From positions 1 through 56,933 of the IMG/VR virus record IMGVR_UViG_3300027788_000013: 56,933 bases of DNA, one strand, 5' to 3'. The notes under the pieces are model-generated. The model was not told the DNA's origin. It made no database searches and was given only the letters and a program-made list of their open reading frames with translations. A program made the position numbers and the translations under genes. The DNA is from a virus. Shown piece by piece: positions 1 through 46,067 of the stretch (its first letter is position 1; each line of letters begins with the position of its first letter).

Positions 1-1
1 T

Positions 2-181
2 CCTAAAACAGGTAATGTTAAAAAAGTAAACTTTGGACACGGCGGAAGCAGTGTTAAAGGTAAAGCTATGAGCATTAAAAAGAATAATCCAAAAAGACGC
101 AAGAGCTTTAGAGCAAGACACAACTGTGATAATCCAGGACCGCGTACTAAAGCACGTTACTGGTCATGTAGGAAGTGGTAA
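2..181 (+). CDS. C-terminal part of a basic conserved phage protein (5' truncated)
   Basis: The reading frame is open from the left edge and stops with TAA at 179-181, so only the last 59 residues are present. The tail is very basic, with a run of Lys/Arg followed by a compact motif containing RARHNC, then GPRTKARYW and SCRKW at the end. I know closely similar C-termini from marine T4-like phage proteins of uncertain role, possibly head-associated. The two Cys and one His might bind a metal, but this is inference. The next gene starts one base after this stop, so the two are probably co-transcribed. No function is assigned. Confidence 0.7.
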   Translation, partial: PKTGNVKKVNFGHGGSSVKGKAMSIKKNNPKRRKSFRARHNCDNPGPRTKARYWSCRKW

Positions 182-182
182 T

Positions 183-521
183 ATGTTATTAAACGAACTA
201 TTCTCAAGTATTGGTAGAGCAGAACACGAACGTGAAGAAGTTAATTGGCATGACGACTTAAGAGTCTTTATTGACAATGACAACGAAGCAATGACCAACG
301 TGTTATTTCCTGCTATTAAGAAACATCAAAAATTTAAAGGTCACCCAAACGCATATAAAATTTATATTAGACCTTTAGAAAAGTGCAAAGAAATGTACTG
401 CAATAAATTTGATATTCAAAACCCTGAAGAAAAGTTCACTAGAGAAAACCTTATTTCACTTGCTAGAGCAATGGCTAAGGAACAAGACGAACATATAGAG
501 AATGGTGATTATGAGAATTAG
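183..521 (+). CDS. Conserved hypothetical protein with CTS-like N-terminus
   Basis: This 112-residue protein starts at ATG 183, one base after the upstream stop. AGGAAG at 170-175 makes a good ribosome binding site. A longer GTG frame from 126 exists but would overlap the upstream gene and lacks this site. No catalytic motif was recognised; the protein is acidic/basic mixed, with a helical C-terminal part rich in Arg, Ala and Glu. Its first residues, MLLNELF, resemble the N-termini of the genes at 511, 2526 and 3223, although the proteins are otherwise unrelated (see findings). Function unknown. Confidence 0.75.
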   Translation: MLLNELFSSIGRAEHEREEVNWHDDLRVFIDNDNEAMTNVLFPAIKKHQKFKGHPNAYKIYIRPLEKCKEMYCNKFDIQNPEEKFTRENLISLARAMAKEQDEHIENGDYEN

Positions 522-1125
522 AGATCTATTTGAAGCTGCTGGAGACAAGCATGTGTCTTTTTGCTTTGGACGTTTTAATCCACCTACCTTAGGTCATAAA
601 CAAGTGTTTGACACTTTAAAAAGTGTTGGTGGCGATTATAAAATCTATACTAGTCAAACCCAAAATAATAAAAAAGATCCCCTAGACTATGCTACTAAAG
701 TAAATTTTATTCGTAAAATACATCCTTCATATGCTGATAACGTAGTTGAAGATACAAACCTTAATACCATTCTTAAAGTAGCAGTATCGTTAGAAGACCA
801 AAATTATAATCATGTAACATTTGTTGCTGGTAGTGATAGAGTTGAAGCTATGGGCAAACTACTTAAAGATTATAACGGCAAAGAAGGCCCTCATGGGTAT
901 TATAATTTTGAAACAATCGATCTTAAATCCAGCGGTCAAAGAGAAGATGGTGCTGAAGGTGTAGAAGGTATTAGTGGTACACTAGCAAGAGCTGATGCTG
1001 CTAATAGTGATATAAATAAATTTGCACAACATACTGGTGCAGGTGAATTTGCTGACGAACTTTATAGCGCAGTAAGAAAAGGACTAGGTATTAAAGATGA
1101 AAACACAGGGGAAGACAATGAATAA
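511..1125 (+). CDS. Nucleotidyltransferase (cytidylyltransferase-like, HxGH superfamily)
   Basis: This 204-residue protein carries the nucleotidyltransferase signature GRFNPPTLGH at about residues 20-29 and an ISGTLAR element (ISxTxxR type) near residue 150. Together these define the fold that transfers NMP to phosphorylated substrates (NMNAT, CTP:phosphocholine or glycerol-phosphate enzymes). The first His of HxGH is Thr here, which I associate with phage members of the family. The substrate cannot be told. I chose ATG 511 over the frame start at 502 because it gives MRIRDLFEA, the N-terminal pattern seen in neighbouring genes. It overlaps the upstream gene by 11 bases and the downstream gene by 8, so translation is probably coupled. 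Confidence 0.8.
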   Translation: MRIRDLFEAAGDKHVSFCFGRFNPPTLGHKQVFDTLKSVGGDYKIYTSQTQNNKKDPLDYATKVNFIRKIHPSYADNVVEDTNLNTILKVAVSLEDQNYNHVTFVAGSDRVEAMGKLLKDYNGKEGPHGYYNFETIDLKSSGQREDGAEGVEGISGTLARADAANSDINKFAQHTGAGEFADELYSAVRKGLGIKDENTGEDNE

Positions 1126-2329
1126 TAAAATAAGAAATGAAGCTAGATCAAGTGCATCAGACCAAGCGGCAGCAGCTGGCGCTTATAATGGTGGCAAGAG
1201 TATCGGTAAGCAAAATAAAAAACCCGGGCAAATGAAACGTTCACAAGCAGATAAAGATGCTGGTGTTGCAAGGATGCGTGATGAAGATGAAGCCGCTAAA
1301 AAAGCACAAAGAGATAGATTTGCCGCAATGAAAAAAGAATCGTACACTCCTACAAAAGACAAAGATGATTACGATGCTAAAGCAAAGGTCTTACAAGGTA
1401 TTCAGTTAGATCCTGAAACTTCAAAAGATCCAGAACTTAGAAAAGAATTAATTAAACGCAAAAACGCATTAGAAAAAGACAAGGCAAAACTTACAGATGC
1501 GTACGATCATCCAGAAGGAGCGAAGCTATCACGTCTTGGTAGAATACTTATGGACAAAGCAATTACAACTAAAGACGATGCATTATCAAATGTACTGTCA
1601 AGAGTTGGAGACGAGCTAACACGTTATGGCGCACCAGGCGGAGCAAGAGATATTAAAGAGCTTGAGTCGAGAACAAAATTACCTCAAGCAAAAATTATGA
1701 AACTTATGTCATGGGCTGATTCACAAAAAGATGATAGCATATCTAAAGTTAAAGATCCTAAACCAAGCGATGAACCAGATGGAGAAGATGGAGAGTTTGA
1801 CGAAGATATGCAAGGTAAAGACAATATGGGCTTTACAGATAAACAAATTAAAATGGCATATGGTGTTCTAAACAACCCAAGATACAAGGGAGGTAACTAT
1901 TCAGGTGCTGTTGAAGTGATTAACAAAATTGCACCCGGCCTTGCAGATCATCCTAGTGTTGCAAAAGCACTACAAAGAACAAATGAAGCAGTTAAAGAAA
2001 GTGCTAACTTAACTGATAAAGAACTAGTAGACGCAGTGTTTAAAGCAATAGACCTAGCAAACAGTTTAGACGTACATTATGCTGTTGACAAAGTGGGCGA
2101 ATTTGCAGAAGATCTGTATAGTGCAGTAAACGGCACAAATGAATCAGTGTGTTCAGAATGTAACAAGCCTAGATTTGTTGCTATGCCAGAGTCAATTCAA
2201 AAGCAATACAGCACTGTTAACGAAGAAAAACAAAAAGGCGTTGACGGCAAAGTATGCTGGAAAGGCTACAAGCGTATGGGCACCAAGAAAAAAGGTGGCA
2301 AGACTGTAGACAACTGTGTTAAAATGTAA
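1118..2329 (+). CDS. Large conserved hypothetical phage protein with lysine-rich C-terminus
   Basis: This 403-residue protein starts at ATG 1118, seven bases after a GGGGAAG ribosome binding site; an upstream ATG at 1097 lies within the preceding gene. The first third is Ala/Lys/Asp-rich and low in complexity. The C-terminus has a motif with VCWKGYKRMGTKKKGGKT and ends in NCVKM, a tail I have seen on several T4-like marine phage proteins. A short Cys pair, CSEC, lies about 55 residues before the end. No enzyme motif was found. The N-terminus has Glu8-Ala9, a possible prohead-protease site (see findings). The last base overlaps the next ATG (TAATG). Confidence 0.75.
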   Translation: MNNKIRNEARSSASDQAAAAGAYNGGKSIGKQNKKPGQMKRSQADKDAGVARMRDEDEAAKKAQRDRFAAMKKESYTPTKDKDDYDAKAKVLQGIQLDPETSKDPELRKELIKRKNALEKDKAKLTDAYDHPEGAKLSRLGRILMDKAITTKDDALSNVLSRVGDELTRYGAPGGARDIKELESRTKLPQAKIMKLMSWADSQKDDSISKVKDPKPSDEPDGEDGEFDEDMQGKDNMGFTDKQIKMAYGVLNNPRYKGGNYSGAVEVINKIAPGLADHPSVAKALQRTNEAVKESANLTDKELVDAVFKAIDLANSLDVHYAVDKVGEFAEDLYSAVNGTNESVCSECNKPRFVAMPESIQKQYSTVNEEKQKGVDGKVCWKGYKRMGTKKKGGKTVDNCVKM

Positions 2330-2529
2330 TGACTGAACTAGACGATATTGTTAGACTTGCCGGCATTAATGAATTCAAAGGATATACTCCTTGGGAAGGC
2401 AGCAATATTAGTATTAGTGGAAATGAAAAAGGCGAGCTAATGAAACAGCATGATATTAAACCAGGCACCCCTGAATGGTTTAAACTATGGTTTTCATTAC
2501 CTAAGTTGACAGGCGAAAAAGCGATATGA
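2329..2529 (+). CDS. Small conserved hypothetical protein
   Basis: This 66-residue protein starts within the TAATG junction with the upstream gene and ends in an ATGA overlap with the next, so it sits in a translationally coupled chain. It has an acidic start (TELDDIVRLAGI) and a C-terminal stretch containing PGTPEWFKLWFS, which I recognise from small proteins of T4-like marine phages. No transmembrane segment, metal motif or catalytic site is visible. Function unknown; the conservation and junctions make it a real gene. Confidence 0.7.
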   Translation: MTELDDIVRLAGINEFKGYTPWEGSNISISGNEKGELMKQHDIKPGTPEWFKLWFSLPKLTGEKAI

Positions 2530-3218
2530 AAATATCTGAAATAATGATTGAAGGTGACGGGCGTAAGAAAGGTATCCACGGCAAAGGTCATCCTAAGCGC
2601 AAAAAGCAACAAGCTGCTATACATGCTAACGAAGCTGTTTTCATCAACATGATGAAATCTTTTATTGTAGAAAACTTTAAACTTAAAAACTTTACAGAAG
2701 AACTAGGAGAACTAGATCCTTCTACTGAAATATATATAGATATGGACGGAGTACTTGCAGACTTTTTTGGTGACTGGGCTAAACTAATGGGTGTAGATAG
2801 TTTCCGTGATATTAAAGACCCTGGTCCTGCACTTGCAAAAATTAGAGCAACAGATGACTTTTGGTTAAAGTTACCATTACTTCCAGAAGCAAAAAAACTA
2901 CTGTCATTAATTAAAGAAGTCAAAGGCGAATACAACATTTGTACAAGTCCGTTAGCAAATGATCCAAATTCAGAACCGCATAAGCGTGAATGGATTAAAA
3001 AGAATCTAGCATTTTTTCCACCTAAGAATATACACATTACACACGACAAGCCACAGTTTGCTAAAACAAACGATGGTGCACCTAATATATTAATTGATGA
3101 TTACGGTGTTAACATTAATGCATGGGAAGCAGCTGGTGGTATTGGATTCAAACATAAAGATCATAAGTTTGAGCGCACAGCTAAAGAAATTAAACAACAC
3201 ATGCAGAAAGGTAAATAG
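2526..3218 (+). CDS. HAD-family 5'(3')-deoxyribonucleotidase-like phosphatase
   Basis: This 230-residue protein has the HAD motif I DMDGVLADF with catalytic Asp72 and Asp74, motif II in CTSPL, a Lys-containing HDKPQF as motif III, and LIDDYG as motif IV. The DGVLADF form and the length of the catalytic part match the 5'(3')-deoxyribonucleotidase branch, which removes phosphate from deoxynucleoside monophosphates; substrate choice is inferred. About 60 residues precede the HAD domain: MKISEIMIEG, then a Lys/His-rich stretch. That extension is unusual for the family and could be a targeting or DNA-binding segment. It starts in an ATGA overlap with the previous gene. Confidence 0.85.
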   Translation: MKISEIMIEGDGRKKGIHGKGHPKRKKQQAAIHANEAVFINMMKSFIVENFKLKNFTEELGELDPSTEIYIDMDGVLADFFGDWAKLMGVDSFRDIKDPGPALAKIRATDDFWLKLPLLPEAKKLLSLIKEVKGEYNICTSPLANDPNSEPHKREWIKKNLAFFPPKNIHITHDKPQFAKTNDGAPNILIDDYGVNINAWEAAGGIGFKHKDHKFERTAKEIKQHMQKGK

Positions 3219-3222
3219 TAGT

Positions 3223-3612
3223 ATGTTATTAAGTGAATTATTTGCAGTTAAGCTCGAAGCTAAAGTCGAAATGTGCTCAGAAGCATGTTGCGGTAAGCCT
3301 GTAACAGAATGTTCTTGTGGACCAGACTGCAAACATTGTGACTGCTATGAAAAGAATAAAGGCGTAGAAGAAAGTGCTACAGCAGGCGCTACAGCAGCAG
3401 GAAACATTGCTAGTGTAGAAGCACCTCATTTAAGTCCAGGCAAAGCACGTGGTAAAAAGTCTTATACAGGCGACCCATGGGGCGGCAAATCAGGCACAAA
3501 AGCTCCACCTCAACCTAAAGTAAAGCAACCAAAAGCTGCTAATGGAACAGCTAAAAATGGGCTCGATATGAAGGGCAACATTTTTGGTGGCGGTGCGGCG
3601 ATAAAGAGATAA
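3223..3612 (+). CDS. Cysteine-rich, metallothionein-like protein
   Basis: This 129-residue protein starts at ATG 3223, four bases after the upstream stop; a longer open frame from 3094 lies inside the nucleotidase gene and is rejected. Residues 18-41 hold eight cysteines and one histidine, spaced CxxxCC, CxC, CxxxCxxCxC, which suggests a zinc or other metal cluster. The rest is Ala/Gly/Pro/Lys-rich and likely disordered, ending in GGGAAIKR. The start MLLSELF matches neighbouring N-termini. Whether it is a true metallothionein, a zinc-binding nucleic-acid protein or a structural peptide cannot be told from sequence. Confidence 0.75.
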   Translation: MLLSELFAVKLEAKVEMCSEACCGKPVTECSCGPDCKHCDCYEKNKGVEESATAGATAAGNIASVEAPHLSPGKARGKKSYTGDPWGGKSGTKAPPQPKVKQPKAANGTAKNGLDMKGNIFGGGAAIKR

Positions 3613-3615
3613 ATA
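3609..3615 (+). promoter_or_regulatory. Possible late-type promoter box ATAAATA
   Basis: ATAAATA overlaps the stop codon of the cysteine-rich gene and lies five bases before the next ATG. It matches the box found ahead of the structural operons on the minus strand. A start site at the usual distance would fall on the ATG itself. In AT-rich sequence this could be chance. Confidence 0.3.
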
Positions 3616-3620
3616 TTAAT

Positions 3621-3914
3621 ATGGAAAACAAACACCCAGATCACGAAGCTAAAATGGCCAAATCGGAATTAGTAAACATTGCTAAGAACGCTATGGATCT
3701 ATTTAAGATGATTGAAGAAGGTGACGAACTTGACGGATGGGTTAGCAGTTATATTACTATATCTAATGATCATATTAATTCCGTTCACGAAAAAATGTCC
3801 TATGACTTTCAGGCTAACAGCACTAGAGAAAAAGGACCACGTGAGTACGAAGCTAATGCTTGTGAAAGTATTCGCAATAAATTAAAAGAGCAATGGGACA
3901 AAACCAAAGGATAA
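3621..3914 (+). CDS. Conserved hypothetical protein (helical, T4-like marine phage family)
   Basis: This 97-residue, largely helical protein has a central segment with GDELDGWVSSYI followed by ISNDHINSVHEKM. I recognise this arrangement from cyanophage and pelagiphage proteins, sometimes as a domain within longer ones. No catalytic residues are evident. It is eight bases downstream of the Cys-rich gene and five bases upstream of the next, within the same plus-strand run. AAGAG upstream is a weak ribosome binding site. Function unknown. Confidence 0.7.
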   Translation: MENKHPDHEAKMAKSELVNIAKNAMDLFKMIEEGDELDGWVSSYITISNDHINSVHEKMSYDFQANSTREKGPREYEANACESIRNKLKEQWDKTKG

Positions 3915-3918
3915 AATT

Positions 3919-4941
3919 ATGGACTTTAGAGATATATTAAATAAACTTCCAAAGGAAGAAAGTAAAAACGCTAACACACATAGCGGTTCATTACAGCAAT
4001 TAGTTGAATCATCAGGCAACGCATATAAAAAAGTTGTGTTTGAAGGTTATACTGATAACGAGATTAGAGACTTATGTCATTCTAAAGACCACGACTGTGC
4101 AACAACAGTAGTACATTCTGTGTACGGTAAAGGTAAACCAGTTTACGAAAGCCATGCTATTCCAGATGATAGCGGTAACGTTGCATGGTACGATGTGCAG
4201 TTTAAACATGGTATTGAAAAGAAAGTTCCAGCTTCTGATATGGAAATTTTAGTTACTGAGTCCCACGGTGCTAAGAAGAAGAAAGCCAAAAAAGAAGATG
4301 TAAAGTCCAAAGATACAGCAGTTAAAGAAGGCGGTGGCCGTGATATGGAATGTGGTCATTGTGATGGCACAGGTAAACATGGTGCTAAAGATTGTAAAAA
4401 GTGTGATGGCACAGGCGAAGCTCAAGCTGACAATGATCCAATGAACAATGAATCAAAGTTCCGTAGCAAGTTTGAAGACATGGTAGCTGAAGCTGGTAAG
4501 CCAGACTTCTTAGATGTTGACAAAGACGGTGATAAGAAAGAGCCAATGAAGAAAGCTGCTAAGGACGCTAAGAAAGCACCAATGAAGAAAGATGCTAAGA
4601 AAGATGCACCTAAAGGCAAAAAAGAAATGTCAGACAAGCAGAAAAAATTCTTTGGTAAAAAGAATGAATCTATAAAAACTGCTAAAAAGACAGTTGCTGA
4701 ATCAGTTGAAGTAATTAAAGATCCTTCCAATCTAACTTACAAGGAAATGATTAAACTTGTACAAGAGAGCGGCGGACAACAACAAATTGATCCAGTAGAC
4801 GCAGTCCTTTGGACATGGGCACAACGAGTTGCTGCTTCTAAAGTAGAAGAGTCTAACAAAGCAGAAATTTTTGCAGGACTAATTTACGAGCGTAACGGCG
4901 GAACATTTAAAATGTTTGACGTACTAGCTGAAGACAAGTAA
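3919..4941 (+). CDS. Conserved phage protein with DnaJ-type zinc motif and lysine-rich region
   Basis: This 340-residue protein has an AAGGA ribosome binding site. Residues about 45-110 hold a domain I know from T4-like marine phages, with HSVYGKGKPVYESHAIPD and VAWYDVQFKHGIEK. Two CxxCxGTG knuckles follow near residues 144-165, as in the zinc region of DnaJ, then a DVDKDGD stretch that looks like a calcium-binding loop, then a strongly Lys-rich segment and a helical C-terminus. It could be a scaffold or nucleic-acid-binding protein, but this is inference. It is the last gene before a strong terminator. Confidence 0.75.
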   Translation: MDFRDILNKLPKEESKNANTHSGSLQQLVESSGNAYKKVVFEGYTDNEIRDLCHSKDHDCATTVVHSVYGKGKPVYESHAIPDDSGNVAWYDVQFKHGIEKKVPASDMEILVTESHGAKKKKAKKEDVKSKDTAVKEGGGRDMECGHCDGTGKHGAKDCKKCDGTGEAQADNDPMNNESKFRSKFEDMVAEAGKPDFLDVDKDGDKKEPMKKAAKDAKKAPMKKDAKKDAPKGKKEMSDKQKKFFGKKNESIKTAKKTVAESVEVIKDPSNLTYKEMIKLVQESGGQQQIDPVDAVLWTWAQRVAASKVEESNKAEIFAGLIYERNGGTFKMFDVLAEDK

Positions 4942-4963
4942 AAAGAATTTATCCAATTCTACA

Positions 4964-4998
4964 TAAAAAAGCCAGTTGCAGGTTGACTGGCTTTTTTT
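4964..4998 (+). terminator. Rho-independent terminator, plus strand
   Basis: The stem AGCCAGT (4970-4976) pairs with ACTGGCT (4986-4992) around a nine-base loop and is followed by seven T. An A-run precedes it, so it could also act on the other strand. It closes the left-hand gene run. Confidence 0.9.
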
Positions 4999-5011
4999 AT
5001 GACTATATAAT
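4983..5011 (+). promoter_or_regulatory. Near-consensus sigma70 promoter for the DsbA-like gene
   Basis: TTGACT (4983-4988) and TATAAT (5006-5011) are separated by 17 bases. The -35 box lies inside the loop and 3' arm of the terminator just described. The predicted start near 5018 leaves a short leader with AGGAG at 5024-5028 before ATG 5036. Confidence 0.8.
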
Positions 5012-5035
5012 ATAACTTCAACTAGGAGATAACTT

Positions 5036-5305
5036 ATGTCAAAAATGTACGGGCCCGAAGAAAAGGCAAAACTTGAACGTCTAATTAAAGAAGGTTCCAA
5101 TGTACTACGTGAAGTAGAAGATTTGAACGAAGGCTTAAAAGACACTGTAAAAGCAGTTGCAGAAGAACTGGAAATTAAACCGAGTATTATTAATAAAGCA
5201 ATTAGAATTGCACATAAAGATAGCTGGAATACCCAATTGGAAGAGTGGGAAGAAATTGAAGCCATCTTAGGTATTACTAAAAACCTCCCTGACGATAAAG
5301 AATAA
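5036..5305 (+). CDS. dsbA: DsbA-like double-stranded DNA-binding protein
   Basis: This 89-residue acidic, helical protein contains LKDTVKAVAEELEIKPSIINKAIRIAHK, which resembles the core of T4 DsbA, an 89-residue protein that binds double-stranded DNA and influences late transcription. Length matches exactly. It has an AGGAG ribosome binding site and its own sigma70 promoter, so it is probably made early. The match is from family recollection, not from an alignment; a generic small DNA-binding protein is the alternative. Confidence 0.65.
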   Translation: MSKMYGPEEKAKLERLIKEGSNVLREVEDLNEGLKDTVKAVAEELEIKPSIINKAIRIAHKDSWNTQLEEWEEIEAILGITKNLPDDKE

Positions 5306-5897: not shown

Positions 5898-5975
5898 GTG
5901 AAGAAGGTAATCGCAGGCCATAAACTGCTTAATGGGTATTTGTCAGCCAGAAGTGACATACAGGAGAATAAATGA
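5898..5975 (+). CDS. Possible 25-residue leader peptide ahead of DNA polymerase
   Basis: A GTG-started frame runs from 5898 and its TGA overlaps the polymerase ATG as ATGA, the same junction used by several certain gene pairs in this window. AGGG at 5885-5888 could serve as ribosome binding site. The product begins MKKVIAGHKLLNGYL. It is short, so chance is quite possible. Within it, GCAG/CTGC (5913-5928) can form a small stem with an eight-base loop, loosely like the T4 gene 43 operator. Confidence 0.3.
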   Translation: MKKVIAGHKLLNGYLSARSDIQENK

Positions 5976-14833: not shown

Positions 14834-15251
14834 GTTTCTAAAACTAATTGGACGAGAGCGTATTATCTACGATAGAGATAACACAATTCCGTATCTAATT
14901 AGATACTATCTATTTTTAAAAGACAGAAAAAACTTTCCGTTTAATATTACTATGCACAAAGTACTAGTAAGTGACGAACCTACACTACACGATCATCCGT
15001 GGAGTTGGGGAGCATTAATTATTAAAGGTGGCTATTGGGAACACACTTCAGAAGGTAAGTTTTGGCGTGGGCCTGGTAGTATACGTTTTAGAACAGCAAA
15101 AGATTTGCATTGGTTAGAACTTGCTAAAGACGCAGACGGAAACGAAATTCCATGCTGGAGCATTTTTTATATGGGCAAGAAAGCTCAAGAATGGGGTTTT
15201 GTTAAAGATGGTAAATGGATACACAACGAGGATTATTTAAATCATGGGTGA
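14823..15251 (+). CDS. Cupin-fold protein
   Basis: This 142-residue protein has LHDHPWSWGALIIKGGYWE, a cupin motif 1 with His-x-His and a downstream Glu, then HWLEL for motif 2, and a C-terminal PCWSIFYMGKKAQEWGF segment typical of small stand-alone cupins that bind a metal. The reaction is unknown; such proteins range from dioxygenases to sugar epimerases. It sits between small unknowns and the phosphoribosyltransferase, overlapping the latter by eight bases. Confidence 0.75.
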   Translation: MFLKFLKLIGRERIIYDRDNTIPYLIRYYLFLKDRKNFPFNITMHKVLVSDEPTLHDHPWSWGALIIKGGYWEHTSEGKFWRGPGSIRFRTAKDLHWLELAKDADGNEIPCWSIFYMGKKAQEWGFVKDGKWIHNEDYLNHG

Positions 15252-15792
15252 TATTAAGAAACATTATTATAGCTGGGCTGACGTAGAAAAAATGTGTGTA
15301 AGCATTGTTAATCAGATGTACGCTGACAGTTGGCGGCCTGATTACATTGTAGGTCTAACACGAGGCGGAAATGTGCCTGCTACTATTATTAGCAACATGA
15401 CTGGCATACGTTGCGAAGCACTTAAAGTAAGTCTACGTGACGATAACAGTCAAAGCGAAAGCAACTTATGGATGGCAGAAGATGCATACGGATATGCAAG
15501 TGATACAAATATCGGTGGTCCTACTACAGCAAAGAAAATCCTTATTGTAGACGACATTAACGATACTGGTGCTACTTTCAATTGGATCAAGGAAGACTGG
15601 CCTGCTAGTTGTTTGCCTGATGATCCGAGATGGGAGAAAGTTTGGTATAGTAACGTTCGGTTTGCTACCCTAACTAATAATCTAGCAAGTGACGCTACAG
15701 TTCCTGTTAGTTACACATGTCACGAAATAAACAAATTTGAAGAAGATGTTTGGCTTGTTTATCCTTGGGAAAATGTAGGAGAGTACACATGA
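15244..15792 (+). CDS. Type I phosphoribosyltransferase
   Basis: This 182-residue protein has the PRPP-binding loop LIVDDINDTGAT at about residues 100-111, and an upstream LTRGGNVPA loop typical of purine phosphoribosyltransferases (hypoxanthine/xanthine-guanine type). It would join a base to PRPP, giving a nucleotide. In a cluster making deazaguanine bases it might act in purine salvage or on the modified base itself; the latter is inference. It ends in an ATGA overlap with the next gene. Confidence 0.85.
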   Translation: MGDIKKHYYSWADVEKMCVSIVNQMYADSWRPDYIVGLTRGGNVPATIISNMTGIRCEALKVSLRDDNSQSESNLWMAEDAYGYASDTNIGGPTTAKKILIVDDINDTGATFNWIKEDWPASCLPDDPRWEKVWYSNVRFATLTNNLASDATVPVSYTCHEINKFEEDVWLVYPWENVGEYT

Positions 15793-16022
15793 GTTATGAC
15801 GATCAATGCGCAGTAACATGCACACACAACGACAAAGTTGTAGATGCAGAAGTTGGCAATTTTAAATCTAAAGAGTTTGTTGAAGTATATATTGCAACAA
15901 ATAAAATTCACATGCGATGGAATGGTAAAACATACGTCGGCGGAATGGCTGGTATGGAATTTACTACACCGGGTCCAAGAGAATTTAAAGTAAAAACTGG
16001 ACGAGGTCGTTATGAAAGCTGA
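15789..16022 (+). CDS. Small hypothetical protein
   Basis: This 77-residue protein starts at ATG 15789 in an ATGA overlap; GGAGAG lies upstream. A longer frame from 15750 is inside the phosphoribosyltransferase gene. It is probably a small beta-rich fold, with VEVYIATNKIHMRWNGKTY and a closing EFKVKTGRGRYE. No motif is recognised. It overlaps the HIT-protein start by 11 bases. Confidence 0.65.
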   Translation: MSYDDQCAVTCTHNDKVVDAEVGNFKSKEFVEVYIATNKIHMRWNGKTYVGGMAGMEFTTPGPREFKVKTGRGRYES

Positions 16023-16386
16023 TACATTAGAGTTAGCAAAAAGCGAAGGCCGTGCTCCTTGGAATGACATTGAAATTGACACTAGAGATTTTACAGTGTT
16101 TCGTGACAAGTATCCGGTTACTGAAGGTCACACATTAATTGTACCTAAAACAGCAGACAGTGAAGGCATTATGAAATGTTTTAACTTTGCTGTTACTATG
16201 GGGTACGATAACGTAATCAGTGATAAGACTAATATCACAGGTTACAATATTGGTTTAAATGTAGGTGAGAGTGCAGGACAAACTGTTATGTATCCGCATG
16301 TACATTTAATCTTTCGTAGAGACGGTGATACGGAAGATCCTAAGGGCGGCGTTCGAGGCGTCATTCCGTCAAAACAACAATACTAA
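16012..16386 (+). CDS. HIT-family nucleotide hydrolase-like protein
   Basis: This 124-residue protein matches the histidine-triad family: an N-terminal FTVFRDKYPVTEGHTLIVPK, then NVGESAGQTVMYPHVHLIF, and the C-terminal GGVRGVIPSKQQY. Family members hydrolyse dinucleotide polyphosphates or nucleoside phosphoramidates. The triad His-x-His-x-His is here Tyr94-x-His96-x-His98, so the first His is lost while the usual catalytic His of the centre (His96) remains. Activity may be altered. It overlaps the previous gene. Confidence 0.8.
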   Translation: MKADTLELAKSEGRAPWNDIEIDTRDFTVFRDKYPVTEGHTLIVPKTADSEGIMKCFNFAVTMGYDNVISDKTNITGYNIGLNVGESAGQTVMYPHVHLIFRRDGDTEDPKGGVRGVIPSKQQY

Positions 16387-16399
16387 AAAAGGAAAGGGT

Positions 16400-16606
16400 A
16401 TGGAATTGAGACAGCAAATGATTAATGCAGCACGTAAACACGCTGAAGCTGAAATTGAACTACACAAAACAAATGTAGAAGTATACATGCAGAAAGTTGT
16501 AGGTATTGGAGAACATTCGGATATTATCGAAACGATCCAAAAAGAACTAGATAAAATGGCTTCTGCACACGATCGTCTAGAAATGTTAGACAAATATTTT
16601 GTCTAA
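16400..16606 (+). CDS. Small conserved helical protein
   Basis: This 68-residue protein starts at ATG 16400 behind GGAAAGG; an upstream in-frame extension from 16325 belongs to the HIT gene region. It contains ELRQQMINAARKHAEAEIE and a segment VGIGEHSDIIETIQKEL, then LDKYF, a pattern I know from cyanophages and related phages. Likely a short coiled-coil. Function unknown. Confidence 0.7.
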   Translation: MELRQQMINAARKHAEAEIELHKTNVEVYMQKVVGIGEHSDIIETIQKELDKMASAHDRLEMLDKYFV

Positions 16607-16787
16607 GCAATGGACAGTTAAAGTAGAAGAAGACCCGGAGACAGGAGAGGTAATTTTACCTTTTCCGCCGGATCTTCTCAGCCAAATGGGATGGGATTTT
16701 GGTGATACTCTTATTTGGGATGACAATCTTAATGGCACCTTTTCAATAAAGAAAAAGGTTGACAACACCGATGAAAAGAAGGTATAA
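16599..16787 (+). CDS. AbrB/MazE-like small DNA-binding-type protein
   Basis: This 62-residue protein starts with TTG at 16599, overlapping the previous stop by eight bases. The stretch PETGEVILPFPPDLLSQMG, then WDFGDTLIWDD, has the swapped-hairpin look of AbrB/SpoVT or MazE antitoxin domains: an ILPFP strand followed by LGWxxGD. No toxin gene accompanies it. It may be a small regulator, but DNA binding is inferred. Its 3' end contains the -35 box of the queE promoter. Confidence 0.6.
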   Translation: MSKQWTVKVEEDPETGEVILPFPPDLLSQMGWDFGDTLIWDDNLNGTFSIKKKVDNTDEKKV

Positions 16788-16788
16788 T
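16759..16788 (+). promoter_or_regulatory. Consensus sigma70 promoter for queE, leaderless geometry
   Basis: TTGACA (16759-16764), 18-base spacer, TATAAT (16783-16788). ATG 16795 is six bases beyond the -10, the same geometry as at 5622-5636, so the transcript probably starts at the ATG. Confidence 0.8.
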
Positions 16789-16794
16789 AGTAGT

Positions 16795-17718
16795 ATGAAT
16801 GAAACAATCGCAACTACCGAAGATACTAAGAAGTATTACTACAGTGAAATTTTTCACAGTATTCAAGGTGAAGGACAATACACTGGTGTTCCTACTGCTT
16901 GGATTAGATTCTTTTTATGTAACTTGCAATGTAACGGGTTTGGACAATTAGATCCAACTAATCCTGATACATACGAACTTCCGTTTGAAACTTTTGATTT
17001 ATCTAAAATTGATAAAGTAGAAGACTTACCTGTTTGGGATAAAGGTTGTGACAGCAGTTACACATGGGCTAAACGATATAAACACTTAATGGGGCAAGAA
17101 ACTCCTAAGGCATTAGCACATAAGATTATTGATATCTTAAAAACAGAGAGTAACCCGGAAGGGTTATTCTTACATCCTGTATCGCAACAGAGGCAACACT
17201 TCTGTGTTACAGGCGGCGAACCTATGATGCCACAAAGTCAGAAAGCGTTTATAGGTATTATGCGAGAGCTTAAAGCACAAAATAATTTACCCGCTAGTAT
17301 TACATTTGAAACTAACGGTACACAAAATCTTACACAAGAGTTTATTAACTTCTGGCAACAAGAAACAGAAATTGAATTATTCTTTAGTGTATCACCTAAA
17401 CTGTTTAGCACATCAGGCGAACTTGCTAAGAAAGCAATTAGACCCGAAGTAGTTGAGCAGTATCGTAAATTATCTAGCAAAGGACAATTAAAGTTTGTTG
17501 TTGGTAGTTTACAACGTGAGTGGGATGACATGGAGGCAGCTATAGCACAATTTCGTGAAGTAGATGTTGACTTTCCTATTTGGGTAATGCCCGTTGGTGC
17601 TAGAGAAGAAGAACAAACCGCAACCGCAGGGCATGTTGCAAAAATGGCATTTCAGAAAGGTTATAATGTAGCTGCTAGAGTACATGTATACTTATTTGGT
17701 AATGCAATTGGAACTTAA
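16795..17718 (+). CDS. queE: QueE-like 7-carboxy-7-deazaguanine synthase (radical SAM)
   Basis: This 307-residue protein begins with YYYSEIFHSIQGEGQYTG, the hallmark of QueE, and has FCVTGGEPMM, the SAM-binding GGE motif. QueE rearranges 6-carboxytetrahydropterin to 7-carboxy-7-deazaguanine. The iron-sulfur cysteines appear as Cys42, Cys46 and Cys85: the normal CxxxCxxC is split, with 38 residues between the second and third. I associate that with phage QueE proteins. Start ATG 16795 was chosen because the frame from 16759 begins within the promoter and lacks homology. It is likely leaderless. Confidence 0.88.
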   Translation: MNETIATTEDTKKYYYSEIFHSIQGEGQYTGVPTAWIRFFLCNLQCNGFGQLDPTNPDTYELPFETFDLSKIDKVEDLPVWDKGCDSSYTWAKRYKHLMGQETPKALAHKIIDILKTESNPEGLFLHPVSQQRQHFCVTGGEPMMPQSQKAFIGIMRELKAQNNLPASITFETNGTQNLTQEFINFWQQETEIELFFSVSPKLFSTSGELAKKAIRPEVVEQYRKLSSKGQLKFVVGSLQREWDDMEAAIAQFREVDVDFPIWVMPVGAREEEQTATAGHVAKMAFQKGYNVAARVHVYLFGNAIGT

Positions 17719-35466: not shown

Positions 35467-36369
35467 CTAAGAAGCACTGATCGCGGCGGCTGTGTATGCT
35501 GGCGATGTGATAGAAAATGCAGTATTAGCAGGCAATATTGTTCCTGTAGCTTTTAATTCTTCTACAGTAATAGAAAGAGTGCCGTCTACTGAATCTCCTG
35601 GAGCTGGTGCTCCTGGATCTGTATAGTTGTCTGATAATAAAACTTTAAAATCAAAGATTCTAGCTGTTCCAGCTGCATTACTAGCAACATCACATTTGCC
35701 TAAAATTTTGTATTCGTTGTTTGAATAAGGTGTACTTGCAGCTAACGTATAAAGTTGCTGATATGTGTTAGTCAGCATGTATGTGTGAGCTAAAGGTGTA
35801 GGTAATCTGCCGCCAAACGTTTGTGAACCAGCTGCTGATAACAAATCTGTCCATGCACCATTTTGTTGTGTTGCAGATCCAAACGCTCTGTTTGCTGTAA
35901 TTCTAAGTCTGCTTCCTGAATTCCAAAAATGCCTTGCATCGTCTGCATTGGCAAATGTCATAGTAACCACATGTTCAGCAGCACTACTCCATGCTGATGT
36001 GTAAGTTGTAGTAGCTTTTGGAGTAACTGTTAGTAGACCAGGATCGCAATCAAATCTATCACTTCTAATTTCATCTGCAAGAGCATTGTACCCATTAAAC
36101 GGATCACTTGCTCCTGCTGAAATAGGATCACCAATTTGTGCAATTGTTGCTGCTGGAACTAAACCGTTTTGATGAAAATATGCATTAACAATGTCAAACC
36201 TAATTGCATCAAAGTGAGACTTTAAAACTGTTTGCCCTGAAATAACTGTTGAGCTGTTTACAGTTTGGCCGTATCCGAATGTGCCGGTGCCACTACCAAT
36301 TACGTCAGAAACTTTGTTTCTTAACGTGTTTAGGTCTGTAGATAATATTTGTGCGCCGGTTGTAGCCAT
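35467..36369 (-). CDS. Virion structural protein, paralogue B
   Basis: This 300-residue protein shares its body with paralogue A and ends with a beta-rich tail. The N-terminus is a short helical region (LSTDLNTLRNKVSDVIG). Probably part of the tail or fibre assembly. It overlaps the upstream fibre gene by one base (TAATGG), so it is likely translated with it. Confidence 0.7.
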   Translation of the reverse strand: MATTGAQILSTDLNTLRNKVSDVIGSGTGTFGYGQTVNSSTVISGQTVLKSHFDAIRFDIVNAYFHQNGLVPAATIAQIGDPISAGASDPFNGYNALADEIRSDRFDCDPGLLTVTPKATTTYTSAWSSAAEHVVTMTFANADDARHFWNSGSRLRITANRAFGSATQQNGAWTDLLSAAGSQTFGGRLPTPLAHTYMLTNTYQQLYTLAASTPYSNNEYKILGKCDVASNAAGTARIFDFKVLLSDNYTDPGAPAPGDSVDGTLSITVEELKATGTILPANTAFSITSPAYTAAAISAS

Positions 36370-38135
36370 TATAATACTACCGCTTCAATAACTTTTGTTC
36401 CTGAATTTGAATTAGACTCTAACGCAATTGCAAACACATCAGGGTCAAGTGCTTGAGCAACTTTTGCATACCCGTCAGCGGCTGCAACTAGTTTATTACC
36501 TTTAGCGACAGCTCCAATTACTTTAACCGGAACTCTACCTTTAAGTGCAATGTACTGACCGCCTTCTAGCCATGCATTCATCATGTATGCAGGTTGTGCT
36601 GAAATAACACCTAACGCTCTATCGCCATCTTTACATTGTGTAACTTCTTCTTCGCCACCTACTGATACAACTGTTCCTGCTTCGTATTCATCATCAGTTA
36701 AATATTTTTCTGCAAGATCAGCATAACGTGCTGCTGTTGCAGTACCTTGGAATAGATTAGCAATTAAGTCTCCTGAACTATTTCTTGCTGCAATACTATT
36801 TGCTGTTGCAGTAGTCTTAGCTGTTTTATAGTTTGGATCTGAATCTGTAGCTGTGTCGTCGATTTTAATTCTGTCTGCTTTACTTGCTGTGCCGTTAAAC
36901 GTAGTAGCGTAAATTGTACCTGTAGCATCTCTAACTGCAATACTGTTTCCTGATGCAGGAACTGGAATAGATGGAGTAATACCGTTTAACGCACTTGCAT
37001 CAGATGCAGTACCTGTTAAGTTACCTTGTACTGATCCAAATAGTGTTCCGTATAATGAAGCTCCTGTGTAACCAATAGTTTTTGTTATACCATTAACCAT
37101 AATGGTTGAATCTGTTGCAAGTAAGCTACCTTGAGTATTACCATTTATATTACCTGTAAGTGGTCCTGTAAATGCTCCTGTAAATGTATCAGCATGTACT
37201 GCTGACCATTTTAATGAAGCTGAACCAAGTGTGTATGAACTTGTTACGCCAGGCAATAATCCTGTTGACGCTAACGTCATAACATTTTTTCTTGTTGTTC
37301 CGCTATCGTTAATAATAAATTTAACAGGGTTACCAAGTACACTCTCTAAAACAATTTCATCATCGTTTTCAACTCTAAGTCTAAAGTCACTTTGGTCACC
37401 AACTCTATAACCTGCATCTTGGAAATTAATTTCTTGGTTAAAGGTAATGCTACCTTTTTGTAAGTATTCTGTTGCGGCAACTCCGCCTAGCTTTAATGCA
37501 TTTGATGATGTTCCCCAATAAACATAATCATCTGTGGTAATACCATTGGCATCTGCTTTTGCCATAGTAATACCTTTCTTGATTAATGTAAAGTCATCAA
37601 TTGGGTTAATTGAACTGTTTAGTGTAAATTCTGTTTGTGAAACAATTGAAACAGTTTTTCCACCTGAATTAATTTTTAAAATAGAATGGTTAGTGTTGCC
37701 TGTGTCTTTAACAACTTGTGCAATTGCACCACTAGCACCTAAGTCTGGAGATGCTTCTGGACCTACTAATACAAACTCGCCGCCTGACCATGCATATAAC
37801 TGCTTTGCTGATGTATCCCACCAAATTTCACCTACTGCTAGTCCTGACGGAGCAACTGATGCAACTTCAGCACCGTTTGCTGTTTTCCATTTTGTTCCAT
37901 CATAAAATTTAAGTCTTAAAGAAGCACTATCAAACCAGATTTGGCCTAAAACTGCTTTTGGTGGAGCAGTAGTATTTGCAAAGTTTTCTAACAAATGTAA
38001 GAAGTTTTCGTTCTGTACTTCGCCATAACCTGCATAATTTTTACCAACGAAGCGTAAATCCGTACTGGTATCGATAGTTCCGTCTTCGACTGACGTTAAA
38101 AAAGTTCCGTTAAATTTATCTACTTGGTATGCCAT
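36369..38135 (-). CDS. Tail fibre protein with shared N-terminal domain, copy 1
   Basis: This 588-residue protein begins MAYQVDKFNGTF and continues with FVGKNYAGYGEVQNENFLHLLENF, then AVLGQIWFD and VGEIWWDTSAKQLYAWSG. These 130 residues recur at the start of the other three fibres. The C-terminus has ADLAEKYLTDDEYEAGTVV, GDRALGVIS and LKGRVPVKV, a segment common at the end of cyanophage fibre proteins and probably a trimer-forming region. A late box lies 28 bases upstream. Confidence 0.85.
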   Translation of the reverse strand: MAYQVDKFNGTFLTSVEDGTIDTSTDLRFVGKNYAGYGEVQNENFLHLLENFANTTAPPKAVLGQIWFDSASLRLKFYDGTKWKTANGAEVASVAPSGLAVGEIWWDTSAKQLYAWSGGEFVLVGPEASPDLGASGAIAQVVKDTGNTNHSILKINSGGKTVSIVSQTEFTLNSSINPIDDFTLIKKGITMAKADANGITTDDYVYWGTSSNALKLGGVAATEYLQKGSITFNQEINFQDAGYRVGDQSDFRLRVENDDEIVLESVLGNPVKFIINDSGTTRKNVMTLASTGLLPGVTSSYTLGSASLKWSAVHADTFTGAFTGPLTGNINGNTQGSLLATDSTIMVNGITKTIGYTGASLYGTLFGSVQGNLTGTASDASALNGITPSIPVPASGNSIAVRDATGTIYATTFNGTASKADRIKIDDTATDSDPNYKTAKTTATANSIAARNSSGDLIANLFQGTATAARYADLAEKYLTDDEYEAGTVVSVGGEEEVTQCKDGDRALGVISAQPAYMMNAWLEGGQYIALKGRVPVKVIGAVAKGNKLVAAADGYAKVAQALDPDVFAIALESNSNSGTKVIEAVVL

Positions 38136-38163
38136 TGTGCTTTATCTTCCTAGTTTGTAGTTG

Positions 38164-38170
38164 TATTTAT
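38164..38170 (-). promoter_or_regulatory. Late-type promoter ATAAATAC
   Basis: The minus-strand box TGATAAATACAAC lies 28 bases before ATG 38135, with AGGAAG in the leader. Confidence 0.65.
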
Positions 38171-38176
38171 CAACCT

Positions 38177-38620
38177 TTACTCTTCTTCTGGTGCTACAGG
38201 CTTAGGGTAAAAACTGTATACACTTGGGTTATCTTTATATGTTTGTAGTGCAGAATTGTAATTTACTGATTTTTGATTAATATATTCACGCATTTCAGTA
38301 AACTCGCTTGTAAGCGGAATTCCAGCTGCTTCTAAACAAGTTGCAATAATATTTAATTGCTTGTGAACAGGATATTTTACAAGAATTTGTTTATTGATAA
38401 CTTCTTCAATAGCAACTTCTTCAATTAACGGCACATCATTTAACGATCTTACACCGCCACTAGCATAGTCGCCCCACCAATATTCATTTTCAGTATCAAT
38501 GTCTATTGTTTTATGCGGCACTCCGCCTTCAGTAAGTCTTTCCGAAAACTCGCTGTCGTAGTCTTGTGCTGAGATCACTTGTGATCGATCAGTGTTAAAA
38601 ATTATAATTTGTTTGCTCAT
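38177..38620 (-). CDS. Hypothetical protein between fibre genes
   Basis: This 147-residue acidic protein contains IIIFNTDRSQVISAQDYDSEF and KYPVHKQLNIIATCLEAAG. It starts in an ATGA overlap with the oxygenase gene. Its position suits a fibre-assembly chaperone, but no motif shows this. Confidence 0.6.
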   Translation of the reverse strand: MSKQIIIFNTDRSQVISAQDYDSEFSERLTEGGVPHKTIDIDTENEYWWGDYASGGVRSLNDVPLIEEVAIEEVINKQILVKYPVHKQLNIIATCLEAAGIPLTSEFTEMREYINQKSVNYNSALQTYKDNPSVYSFYPKPVAPEEE

Positions 38621-39114
38621 CTAGTTCTTCCCCAACTTAATGCAAGACTTATCTTAGGTCTTTCATTTTGTTCTATTTTAGTAACTTCGTGTTCTAAATT
38701 AACTGGCATATCAATAAACATTCCAGGTGTTTCGTCAACTAAATTACTGTTACCTTCTTCATCGTACCAACAAAAGTGCGGAGCATCAGCTCTTAAAAAT
38801 ATTAGTTTAAACTTCCAATACCCGCCTGCACTATCTCGGTGCCTTTTTAAATAATCGCCTGGATCGTATTTGTTTATACAAAAACTATCACAAGTCTTAT
38901 CTTCTTCTGGAATTGATTCATTTATCAACTCCTTTAATTCGTTTGGCATGTTCCAACGGAACATACTTTTTAGTTTACTTTCGCCGTATGCAGTAACAAA
39001 ATTAAACTCTGCGCCTTGTTCTCTTACAAAAAAACTTTCTTCGTTTGCCTCTACTAACCTTACTATTTCATCAACATTTTTACAATAGTTCGGTATCAAC
39101 GATACCTGTGCCAT
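38617..39114 (-). CDS. 2OG-Fe(II) oxygenase (prolyl hydroxylase-like)
   Basis: This 165-residue protein has the iron-binding His92-x-Asp94 in LKRHRDSAGG, the second His at 142 in NLEHEV and the 2-oxoglutarate Arg at 152 in ERPKISLALSWG. It should hydroxylate a side chain or another substrate. I chose ATG 39114 in the TAATG junction with the upstream fibre gene. Being wedged between fibre genes, it may hydroxylate a fibre protein; this is inference. Confidence 0.8.
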   Translation of the reverse strand: MAQVSLIPNYCKNVDEIVRLVEANEESFFVREQGAEFNFVTAYGESKLKSMFRWNMPNELKELINESIPEEDKTCDSFCINKYDPGDYLKRHRDSAGGYWKFKLIFLRADAPHFCWYDEEGNSNLVDETPGMFIDMPVNLEHEVTKIEQNERPKISLALSWGRTR

Positions 39115-41345
39115 TAAATCGTACTCCAGGTTCCTGTATATGCCCAAGTACTACCATTGGATTGATAAATCAATTTATATCCTGTACTACTATTATAAAT
39201 CGAAGTACTAGTTGATACACTTGCAGTGGCCCAACGATATGCTAAGATCCATCTTCCTGCGCTAAAGCTACTTGAACTCCCTGCATAAATGTTGTTAATA
39301 ATTAATTCAAATGTCTGTCCACTTGCTGTACTTGCTGGTAGATATGCTTGAATAAGATCAGCATATTGTGCATCAGGTGAGCTAGTATTTGGAGCTGGTG
39401 AACTAATTGTCATAGTTCTTTTAATTGTAGTGTTAACAACGTTTTGTACAAATGCTGTTGTAGCAATTAATGTTGAACTATCTGCTGTTGCTTGAGTAAC
39501 TGCATAAGATGCATTAGTTGCATTAGTTGCATTAGTTGCAGTAGTCGCCGACGTTGCTGTAATTGCTGTAGTTGCTGTAGTTGCTGTAGTTGCATTACCT
39601 GTTAAGTTTGCAGTAATTGTACCAGCACTAAAGTTACCACTTGCATCACGAGCAACTACTTTATTTGCTGTGTTTGCAGTTGTTGCATCTACATTAAATG
39701 AGGTGCTAGTAATACCGTCATATGCTAACCCTGTAATATAACTACCAGCTGTTAGTGTTGAAAATGTAATAGTATCCCATACCGGCTGCCCTGATCCAGT
39801 TGATTTTAATAACTGACCTGCAACGCCTGATGGTATATGAGCCGTTGTTCCTGCAGCAGTTTGATACGGCATTGTTCCGCCTGCTCCGCCAGCAACGTTT
39901 GTTGCAGTAGTTGCAGTAGTTGCATTACCTGTAACATTACCAGTCAAGTTACCTGTAAAGTTTTGTGAGTATGTATTCTTAAAACGTAATGCACTAGATC
40001 CAAGATCTAAATTTACATCATTGCTTGGAATAAATCCTGCATTTAAACTAGGTGATCTTGTTGGTCCGTATAAATTTAATTGATAATCTACACCTTCTGT
40101 TGCAGCTAAACTAATTTGGTTAGTTGCTTTTATTTCAGTAGCATTAACTGTACCGTCAAGCACTAAATTTCCATTAATTGTAATATTTCCAGCAGTGTTA
40201 AGTGTTGTTAATGTACCTACACTTGTTAATGCAGATGAAATTACAGTATTATGTAAATTAGTACCTGTTAGTGTATTAGCATCAGATGTAACTGTAATGT
40301 CAGTTGTTCCGTCAAACCCAACACCGTTAATATTTCTTGCTGTTGATAGACGCTGTGCTGCGGCTGCTGTTCCTGAAAGAGATGCTCCTATAAATCTTGC
40401 TGCTGTAACATCACCTGTAAAACTTGCTGTTGCACCTGCAACGTCACCTGCAACGTCACCTGTTAAGTTTGCAGTAATTGTTCCTGCTGCAAAATTACCC
40501 GAACTGTCTCTTGCTACAATTTTTCCAATTTGATTTAAACTAGATGCATCAACTGCCCAAGATAAAGTACTTCCACCATCAAAGTCTGTACCTGTAAGGT
40601 ACCCGCCTGCTTGTAGACTGTGAGGTGTTTGCGCTCTAACTGTAAGGTCTGACGATCCGTCAAAAGTAACACCATTAACTAGTACTGGATGTTCTAGTCT
40701 TACTGCCTTGTCAGCAACACCTTGTAGTGTGGCCATTACCTTTGTAGTTGCTGCTAGGTTAATACCTGCAATTAAATCGGTAAATCCTGGAACTGCATTT
40801 GATGATGCAATTGTAAATGGACTTGATGTTACTATTCCTATTACAATATCATTAACAACGAGCTGTATAACTGGATATGTTGCTCCTGCGTCTGATACTA
40901 ATGACGTAGATTTAGCTCTAGTTTCAAGAAATCCTTCTGCACTCTCTGGACCTATTTTAATCCATTCAATGCCGTTATAAACATGTAGTGATGGTATTGC
41001 TGGTGTTAGTGCTGTTGGCGCACTTTTTAACCAAAAAGATCCTGTTGCTGGTGTTGTTGGCGATGTTGCACCTACTGATGCTGCACCTACTTCTACCCAG
41101 TCTTCACCATTGTAAATCTTTAAAATATTTAATATTGAGTCAAACCAACATTGCCCTACAATAGGTGTAGCAGGAGCTGAACGGTTTGCAAAATTCTCTA
41201 AAAGGAATAAAAAGTTTTCATTTTGAATTTCACCGTATCCAACGTAGTTTCTACCAACAAACGATAAACTTGTTGTTGAATCAACTGCTGCATCTTGTAG
41301 TACAACTAATTGAGTACCGTCGGTTTTATTAATTACATAAGCCAT
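39114..41345 (-). CDS. Tail fibre protein with shared N-terminal domain, copy 2
   Basis: This 743-residue protein starts MAYVINKTDGTQL with the shared domain (FVGRNYVGYGEIQNENFLFLLENF). The middle contains repeated Gly/Asn/Thr segments such as GNLTGNVTGNATTATTATNV and alternating Thr/Ala triplets (encoded at 39511-39600). The C-terminus is a small beta-rich head with YKLIYQSNGSTWAYTG. It should form a long fibre whose tip recognises the host. GGAGCG precedes the ATG. Confidence 0.85.
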   Translation of the reverse strand: MAYVINKTDGTQLVVLQDAAVDSTTSLSFVGRNYVGYGEIQNENFLFLLENFANRSAPATPIVGQCWFDSILNILKIYNGEDWVEVGAASVGATSPTTPATGSFWLKSAPTALTPAIPSLHVYNGIEWIKIGPESAEGFLETRAKSTSLVSDAGATYPVIQLVVNDIVIGIVTSSPFTIASSNAVPGFTDLIAGINLAATTKVMATLQGVADKAVRLEHPVLVNGVTFDGSSDLTVRAQTPHSLQAGGYLTGTDFDGGSTLSWAVDASSLNQIGKIVARDSSGNFAAGTITANLTGDVAGDVAGATASFTGDVTAARFIGASLSGTAAAAQRLSTARNINGVGFDGTTDITVTSDANTLTGTNLHNTVISSALTSVGTLTTLNTAGNITINGNLVLDGTVNATEIKATNQISLAATEGVDYQLNLYGPTRSPSLNAGFIPSNDVNLDLGSSALRFKNTYSQNFTGNLTGNVTGNATTATTATNVAGGAGGTMPYQTAAGTTAHIPSGVAGQLLKSTGSGQPVWDTITFSTLTAGSYITGLAYDGITSTSFNVDATTANTANKVVARDASGNFSAGTITANLTGNATTATTATTAITATSATTATNATNATNASYAVTQATADSSTLIATTAFVQNVVNTTIKRTMTISSPAPNTSSPDAQYADLIQAYLPASTASGQTFELIINNIYAGSSSSFSAGRWILAYRWATASVSTSTSIYNSSTGYKLIYQSNGSTWAYTGTWSTI
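39511..39600. repeat. In-frame 9-base repeats within a tail fibre gene
   Basis: Direct repeats of GTTGCATTA and GTTGCTGTA (three or more copies each) encode a Thr-Ala-Thr/Asn run. Each unit is nine bases, so copy changes keep the frame and alter fibre length. Confidence 0.75.
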
Positions 41346-41367
41346 TTAGAACGCTCCTATTTTCATA

Positions 41368-43236: not shown

Positions 43237-43248
43237 TTATATCTCGCC

Positions 43249-46060: not shown

Positions 46061-46067
46061 TATTTAT
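46061..46067 (-). promoter_or_regulatory. Late-type promoter ATAAATAC
   Basis: The minus-strand box GAATAAATACACT contains the TAA stop of the giant gene. It lies 25 bases before ATG 46035 and probably drives the fibre operon 46035 to 38177 or beyond. Confidence 0.65.

Follow-up and report, generated by a model that had tools for sequence, protein, structure and literature searches.

Predicted T4-type capsid-targeting leaders on metabolic enzymes of a marine T4-like phage

We analyzed a 56.9-kb virus record of a T4-like marine phage (IMG/VR record IMGVR_UViG_3300027788_000013, positions 1 to 56,933; all 56,933 nt are referred to here as the window), whose left end encodes a cluster of unrelated proteins ahead of the DNA polymerase gene. 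We consider it probable that several members of this cargo cluster, metabolic enzymes included, carry T4-type capsid-targeting leaders that would be cut off by the phage protease, and that the enzymes would then enter the host with the DNA. Our sequence comparisons document a shared leader that resembles both T4 leaders and the cleavage sites of the capsid protein gp23, and that co-occurs with virion detection in relatives.

Leader-like N-termini in the window

An earlier note, made from the sequence of the window alone, had pointed to a common-looking start among the left-end proteins. All of the N-termini that it quoted are present, in the following genes (a slash marks the presumed cut):

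183-521, plus strand: 112-aa protein of unassigned function; partial leader MLLNELF at 183-203
511-1125, plus strand: nucleotidylyltransferase of the phosphopantetheine adenylyltransferase (PPAT) and nicotinate/nicotinamide mononucleotide adenylyltransferase (NMNAT) superfamily, 204 aa; leader MRIRDLFE/A; Pfam CTP_transf_like, PHROG 3041/395 and a fold match
511-534, plus strand: region encoding the putative capsid-targeting leader MRIRDLFE; predicted cut before Ala9
1118-2329, plus strand: 403-aa low-complexity protein; start MNNKIRNE/A
2526-3218, plus strand: HAD-type 5'(3')-deoxyribonucleotidase (NT5C), 230 aa; Pfam NT5C E = 1.8e-8, PHROG 2643; N-terminal addition of ~55 aa
2526-2552, plus strand: codons of the proposed leader MKISEIMIE; predicted cut before Gly10
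3223-3612, plus strand: Cys-rich protein, 129 aa; leader MLLSELFAVKLE/A

The nucleotidyltransferase has another in-frame ATG at 502, but its orthologues favour the start at 511. The note had also placed the Glu residues correctly (E8/A9 in the 511 and 1118 proteins, E9/G10 in the 2526 protein). As a common start, however, only those at 511 and 2526 are clean, whereas MLLNELF (183) and MLLSELF (3223) are partial and have no Glu followed by Ala or Gly at residues 8-9. The 3223 protein has its Glu-Ala pair at E12/A13, and its orthologues are cleaner (MKIFEITE/AKVEMC, also MKIFEITE/S). At the end of the leader the motif reads L-F-E/A (511), M-I-E/G (2526), K-L-E/A (3223) and R-N-E/A (1118).

According to a review of T4, mutagenesis of IPIII assigns targeting chiefly to residues 4 and 7 and processing to residues 8 and 10, and the gp21 protease cuts after L/I-x-E (PMC9026906). 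The T4 record gives MKTYQEFIAE/A for IPII and IPIII, MKTFKEFTS for IPI and SFLTE65/AEIGG for the cut in gp23; the T4 Alt start that the note had given, MELITELF, stands there as MELITELFDED. The hydrophobic anchors of the window leaders (I3/L6 at 511, I3/I6 at 2526) retain the T4 spacing, at residues 3 and 6. The N-termini at 183 and 3223 are taken as leaders with less certainty than those at 511 and 2526. A loose count of L-x-E near the start, limited to the window, scarcely exceeds chance; the genes there are too few and the motif excess is weak. By themselves these N-termini are only suggestive, and it is the relatives that make the case.

Leader-bearing orthologues in cyanophage virions

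Virion mass spectrometry has detected the orthologous nucleotidyltransferase in S-SM1 (PMC3037559), S-CREM2 (PMC10665884), S-SCSM1 (PMC9602691) and S-SZBM1 (PMC9146016). Reading the starts of these proteins from the genome records, we found MKKFSAFLNE/A in S-SM1, MKNFSSFLTE/A in S-CREM2, MKSFLQFLKE/A in S-SCSM1 and MRFRQFIIE/A in S-SZBM1. In the cyanophage orthologues residues 4 and 7 are bulky and hydrophobic, as in T4, and in S-SCSM1 the neighbouring proteins 89, 90, 92 and 93 are likewise annotated as virion proteins. The kinase of S-CRM01, also reported in virions, starts MISFDQFLSE/K. For the window phage we infer packaging of the nucleotidyltransferase as the best supported step.

A pattern fixed solely from T4 capsid-targeting mutagenesis was applied to the 218 proteins of S-CREM2. 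It matched 6 proteins, and 5 of these 6 were virion-detected (6, an S-adenosylmethionine (SAM) hydrolase; 13; 14, a kinase; 136; and 154, the cytidylyltransferase; p = 0.003). With tail, baseplate and capsid proteins removed, the pattern occurred in 5 of 15 detected versus 1 of 166 undetected proteins (p = 1e-5). When S-CREM2 proteins were ranked by similarity to the T4 leader, the five virion-detected pattern proteins all fell within the top six. A looser test (L-x-E within the first 14 residues) was not significant in S-CREM2 (p = 0.09).

The virion-detected, Cas9-annotated nuclease of S-CREM2 (gene 12, L191:7704-10313) has RFASFMAE/A at residues 18-25, in an N-terminal module that also exists as a stand-alone protein of S-CRM01 (g128, L205 5422-5973; SLDSFIKE/A). 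This arrangement suggests that the Cas9-like nuclease gained a packaging module by fusion.

Leaders exchanged among domains in relatives

Nucleotidyltransferases in other viral contigs start MKIRELFEA, MFLRELFEA, MRLRQLFEA, MLLTELYET or MLLRQLYEA. The nucleotidase domain stands in other phages behind MRFSEIRE/D, MRLRQLYE/D, MKLRELFE/Y or MKLFEFLKE/D, the last together with a GRIVKGVNTT module. Leaders of different length are thus swapped before one domain, and one leader heads different domains. Orthologues of the 183 protein start MKLNELFSPIG, and on contig L010 two unrelated proteins start with MKLNELFS, the 183 orthologue and a second one in which it continues to the Glu-Ala end (MKLNELFSE/A); a segment homologous to the 1118 protein is headed there by MKLNELFSE/A. 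Other marine leaders, such as MKKFKQYIDE/G, MTKTFKDYLKE/A and MKQFKEYLTE/A, are near to those of T4. In G006 (229422-231506), in the position that the nucleotidyltransferase occupies in the window, a different subfamily of that enzyme (GGFHPFHPGH) lies behind the leader MFVRDLFEA, the enzyme swapped and the tag kept. In Melnitz (W01, 14914-16866) a 650-aa protein with the leader MKKFSEIIE/A joins a nucleotidyltransferase to a RHKC...GYWAC-type module of the kind found in the window's left neighbour.

Across the relatives, the leader motif starts 81 of 2,782 distinct proteins versus 7 of 12,796 internal methionines (~50-fold), with the motif composed after examples had been seen and many of the members homologous. 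By a coverage rule, the leader-bearing proteins form about 26 non-homologous families. Single-linkage clustering was also tried and rejected; it placed most of them in one group, because modules are shuffled among leader proteins. Patterns written from T4, together with shifted registers, gave an excess of 4.6- to 12-fold (p = 3e-11 to 1e-29).

It could be argued that the shared N-termini are chance, or a functionless trace of shuffled gene starts, and that virion detection reflects abundant contaminants. The small window-only excess and the plain shuffling of modules in the cluster would fit such a view. We nevertheless consider it quite improbable: many families show the motif strongly enriched at the N-terminus, and 5 of the 6 pattern-bearing S-CREM2 proteins were detected, whereas abundant replication proteins went undetected.

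Signatures shared with capsid and scaffold proteins

Genes for an S77 prohead protease and for the head proteins gp22 and gp23 are present in the relatives G005, G006, G007, Melnitz and C48C1. G006 encodes gp20, gp21, gp22 and gp23, and the cargo cluster that it carries at 226-233 kb is syntenic; the nucleotidyltransferase of that cluster starts MFVRDLFEA. The ends of leaders resemble the gp23 site of the same phage: G007 has KYLAE/A in both, and S-CREM2 has SFLTE/A versus LLTE/A. Further resemblances involve these features of the window:

2225-2323, plus strand: module CWKGYKRMGTKKKGGKTVDNCVK at the C-terminus of the 1118 protein, common to virion-detected S-SZBM1_139 and S-CREM2_160
2329-2529, plus strand: 66-aa conserved protein; start MTELDDIVRLAGINEF, similar to the LRRLAGL tail of the relatives' scaffold protein gp22
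3370-3414, plus strand: near-copy of a gp23 protease site and mature N-terminal arm, ESATAGATAAGNIAS; match to G006 gp23 LSE/SATSGATAAGNIAT
3919-4941, plus strand: 340-aa modular protein; start MDFRDILNKL, DnaJ-type Cys motif, KPDFLDVDKDGDKKEPM module

The 3223 protein carries VEE/SATAGATAAGNIAS, which aligns with the presumed cleavage site LSE/SATSGATAAGNIAT of G006 gp23 (local score 67; reached by 0 of 5,000 shuffles). Virion-detected S-CREM2_160 and S-SCSM1_97 likewise copy the corresponding arm of cyanophage gp23, and modules of the 3919 protein are common to virion-detected S-SCSM1_92 and S-CREM2_111. The motif L-[KR]-x-L-A-G-[LIV] starts the 66-aa family (2329-2529 in the window), ends gp22 in G006 (86583-87671) and G007 (93372-94457), and is also found inside other leader-bearing proteins, with 58 occurrences versus 1 in shuffled proteins. 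It is possibly another scaffold-docking motif.

Peptides of the xxLF type resemble clamp-binding motifs, and the window DNA polymerase itself ends in ...NNFNSLFDFE. The N-termini might then dock the sliding clamp or RNA polymerase and bring enzymes to the replisome, their likeness to T4 leaders being accidental. We regard this as highly improbable, as it leaves unexplained why a conserved Glu precedes a small residue, why the leaders resemble gp23 sites and why they go with virion detection; moreover, the late sigma factor gp55 and gp33 of S-CREM2 have no such leader start.

Intact enzyme domains behind the proposed leaders

The window nucleotidyltransferase has both the (H/T)xGH and the (I/V)SxT motif (FGRFNPPTLGH, GISGTLAR) and scores above the Pfam cut-off. 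A sequence search of solved structures with this protein returned no useful match, so we turned to fold comparison; Foldseek matched its model to PPAT and to NMNAT structures (template modelling (TM) score about 0.5-0.6). In the AlphaFold model, residues 1-10 have a predicted local distance difference test (pLDDT) score of about 50 and form a detached low-confidence helix that is not part of the predicted fold; pLDDT is >90 from residue 11 onward, and the enzyme domain starts at residue 14. The nucleotidase has the DxDGV motif (DMDGVLADFF) and matches NT5C at 34.9 bits versus a cut-off of 24.8. In RaK2, an Asteriusvirus and a Pseudomonas Wroclawvirus, three jumbo phages that are not T4-like, the nucleotidyltransferase begins directly at the enzyme domain, and that of a freshwater contig group is likewise leaderless (MKKHVAFAFGRFNPPT).

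The leader might also dock proteins to the scaffold merely as parts of the prohead core, to be digested like T4 gp67, gp68 and gp22, with little or no delivery. C48C1 has a 65-aa protein starting MRTFKELRE/A immediately before gp21, in the place of T4 gp67/gp68, and many cluster proteins are of low complexity with internal L-x-E sites. However, comparison of the sequences indicates that the enzyme domains are intact and their catalytic residues conserved, a waste in a mere scaffold part, and mature virions have yielded orthologues. We therefore think this alternative unlikely.

Gene order and neighbouring genes

From left to right, the window has the end of an ARYWSC-tail protein, the 183 gene, the nucleotidyltransferase (511), the 1118 gene, the 66-aa gene (2329), the deoxyribonucleotidase (2526), the Cys-rich gene (3223) and the genes at 3621 and 3919; the DNA polymerase starts at 5972, after the cargo cluster. 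A longer contig of the phage, G001 (80.9 kb; IMGVR_UViG_3300027791_001841), has the identical nucleotidyltransferase and continues leftward beyond the window. The two remaining members are:

1-181, plus strand: 3' end of the preceding gene, complete on G001 (55128-56273); leader-like start MRDLLNKLKLLE/SAV, ARYWSC tail, terminal module KSFRARHNCDNPGPRTKARYWSCRKW
3621-3914, plus strand: 97-aa leaderless protein, homologous to portions of the relatives' fusion proteins

The C-terminal module of the 1-181 protein stands behind MTKTFKDYLKE/A or MKKFKQYIDE/G in relatives. A small DsbA-like late-transcription regulator (5036-5305; Pfam Phage_DsbA, E = 6e-7) separates the cargo cluster from the DNA polymerase. 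Farther along, the minus strand holds one open frame of ~3,600 codons (46064-56854) that adjoins several tail-fibre-like genes (36369-45390).

Proposed mechanism and significance

In the mechanism that we propose, two bulky hydrophobics spaced three apart would dock each protein to the scaffold core during prohead assembly. A gp21-type (S77) protease would then cut behind the Glu that ends the leader, likely before Ala9 and Gly10 in the window enzymes, freeing the mature enzyme within the head; the 3223 protein also has the near-copy of the gp23 cleavage arm. Ejected into the host together with the DNA, the enzymes would function there ahead of phage gene expression. The infecting phage thus probably supplies its host with enzymes made beforehand. 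That the NMNAT-like enzyme restores nicotinamide adenine dinucleotide (NAD) in early infection is only a suggestion.

Several findings weigh against this reading. The window has no head genes and no prohead protease, these lying outside the available contigs, and gp21, gp23, terminase and sheath genes, sought in the phage's longer contig G001 and in the relatives G003 and G004, were not found there; these contigs are probably partial. The 1118 protein does not fit an L/I-x-E site, as it has Arg three residues before the cut (I-R-N-E). The window leaders are 1-2 residues shorter than those of T4, with matching spacing but not the exact positions 4, 7 and 10. The HTVC008M nucleotidyltransferase (L206 3950-5740) starts MKTLKELLRKK, which has the anchors and no Glu (perhaps it is packaged yet untrimmed), and a few further homologues also lack the leader Glu. 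In S-SZBM1, the clear leader proteins 191 and 192 were undetected in the virion, and the authors of the proteome papers note that such proteins may be contaminants. The capsid targeting that the earlier note had proposed is thus well backed by leader-bearing, virion-detected orthologues but only partly supported overall, because the 1118 protein is siteless, two leaders have no Glu-Ala end, the head and protease genes of this phage lie outside the contigs, and cleavage and ejection are steps that we infer.

A review of T4 had proposed that the leader could let T4-like phages carry varied proteins (PMC9026906); a search of the open literature (subscription papers were outside its scope) for capsid targeting in conjunction with cyanophages turned up only a T4 review. 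What we add is that the leader is recognised on enzymes in marine T4-like phages, and that it is tested against existing proteomes. Cyanophage virion proteomes repeatedly find a cytidylyltransferase/NMNAT-like enzyme, and a readable leader offers a reason for its presence. For hundreds of genomes of marine phages, cargo would become predictable from the sequence, and T4 internal-protein delivery, a route for small anti-restriction proteins, would come to include metabolic enzymes. The leaders also offer tags to load proteins into other T4-like heads. More tentatively, and with some doubt, we hypothesize that marine T4-like phages have a general, modular cargo-loading system in which several capsid-derived tags (the leader cut by the prohead protease, copies of the gp23 cleavage arm and copies of the C-terminal LAG motif of the scaffold) load a varying assortment of enzymes (nucleotidyltransferases, nucleotidase, SAM hydrolase, kinase and even a Cas9-like nuclease) that act on the host as infection begins.

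Comparison with known systems

The ejection proteins of phiKZ-like giant phages resemble the proposed cargo in having a propeptide removed by the prohead protease and in being delivered with the DNA. They belong to another phage group and use an S/A-x-E motif, and we found no relation between them and the window proteins. T4 Alt, an ADP-ribosyltransferase carried in the head, is likewise an enzyme cargo, and its MELITELF is close to MLLNELF and MLLSELF. The homology ends at this leader-like start, however: besides proteins of unassigned function the window has a nucleotidyltransferase and a nucleotidase, and none of the proteins of 183-5305 matched the ADP-ribosyltransferase family in Pfam or PHROG.

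With the capsid-targeting sequences of T4 IPI, IPII and IPIII the window shares an N-terminal leader of ~10 residues, hydrophobics three apart, an x-E/A end and diverse proteins behind it. Unlike those of the T4 internal proteins, the window leaders are only 8-9 residues long, their anchors lie at residues 3 and 6, and the predicted cargo consists of recognisable enzymes. Published cyanophage reports leave the packaging of the cytidylyltransferase/NMNAT-like protein undecided and offer no signal for it. The window nucleotidyltransferase is shorter than these cyanophage virion proteins, but it shares with S-SM1 T4-GC190, S-SCSM1 ORF91, S-CREM2 ORF154 and S-SZBM1_140 an orthologous domain (33-38% identity), a leader and virion-protein neighbours.

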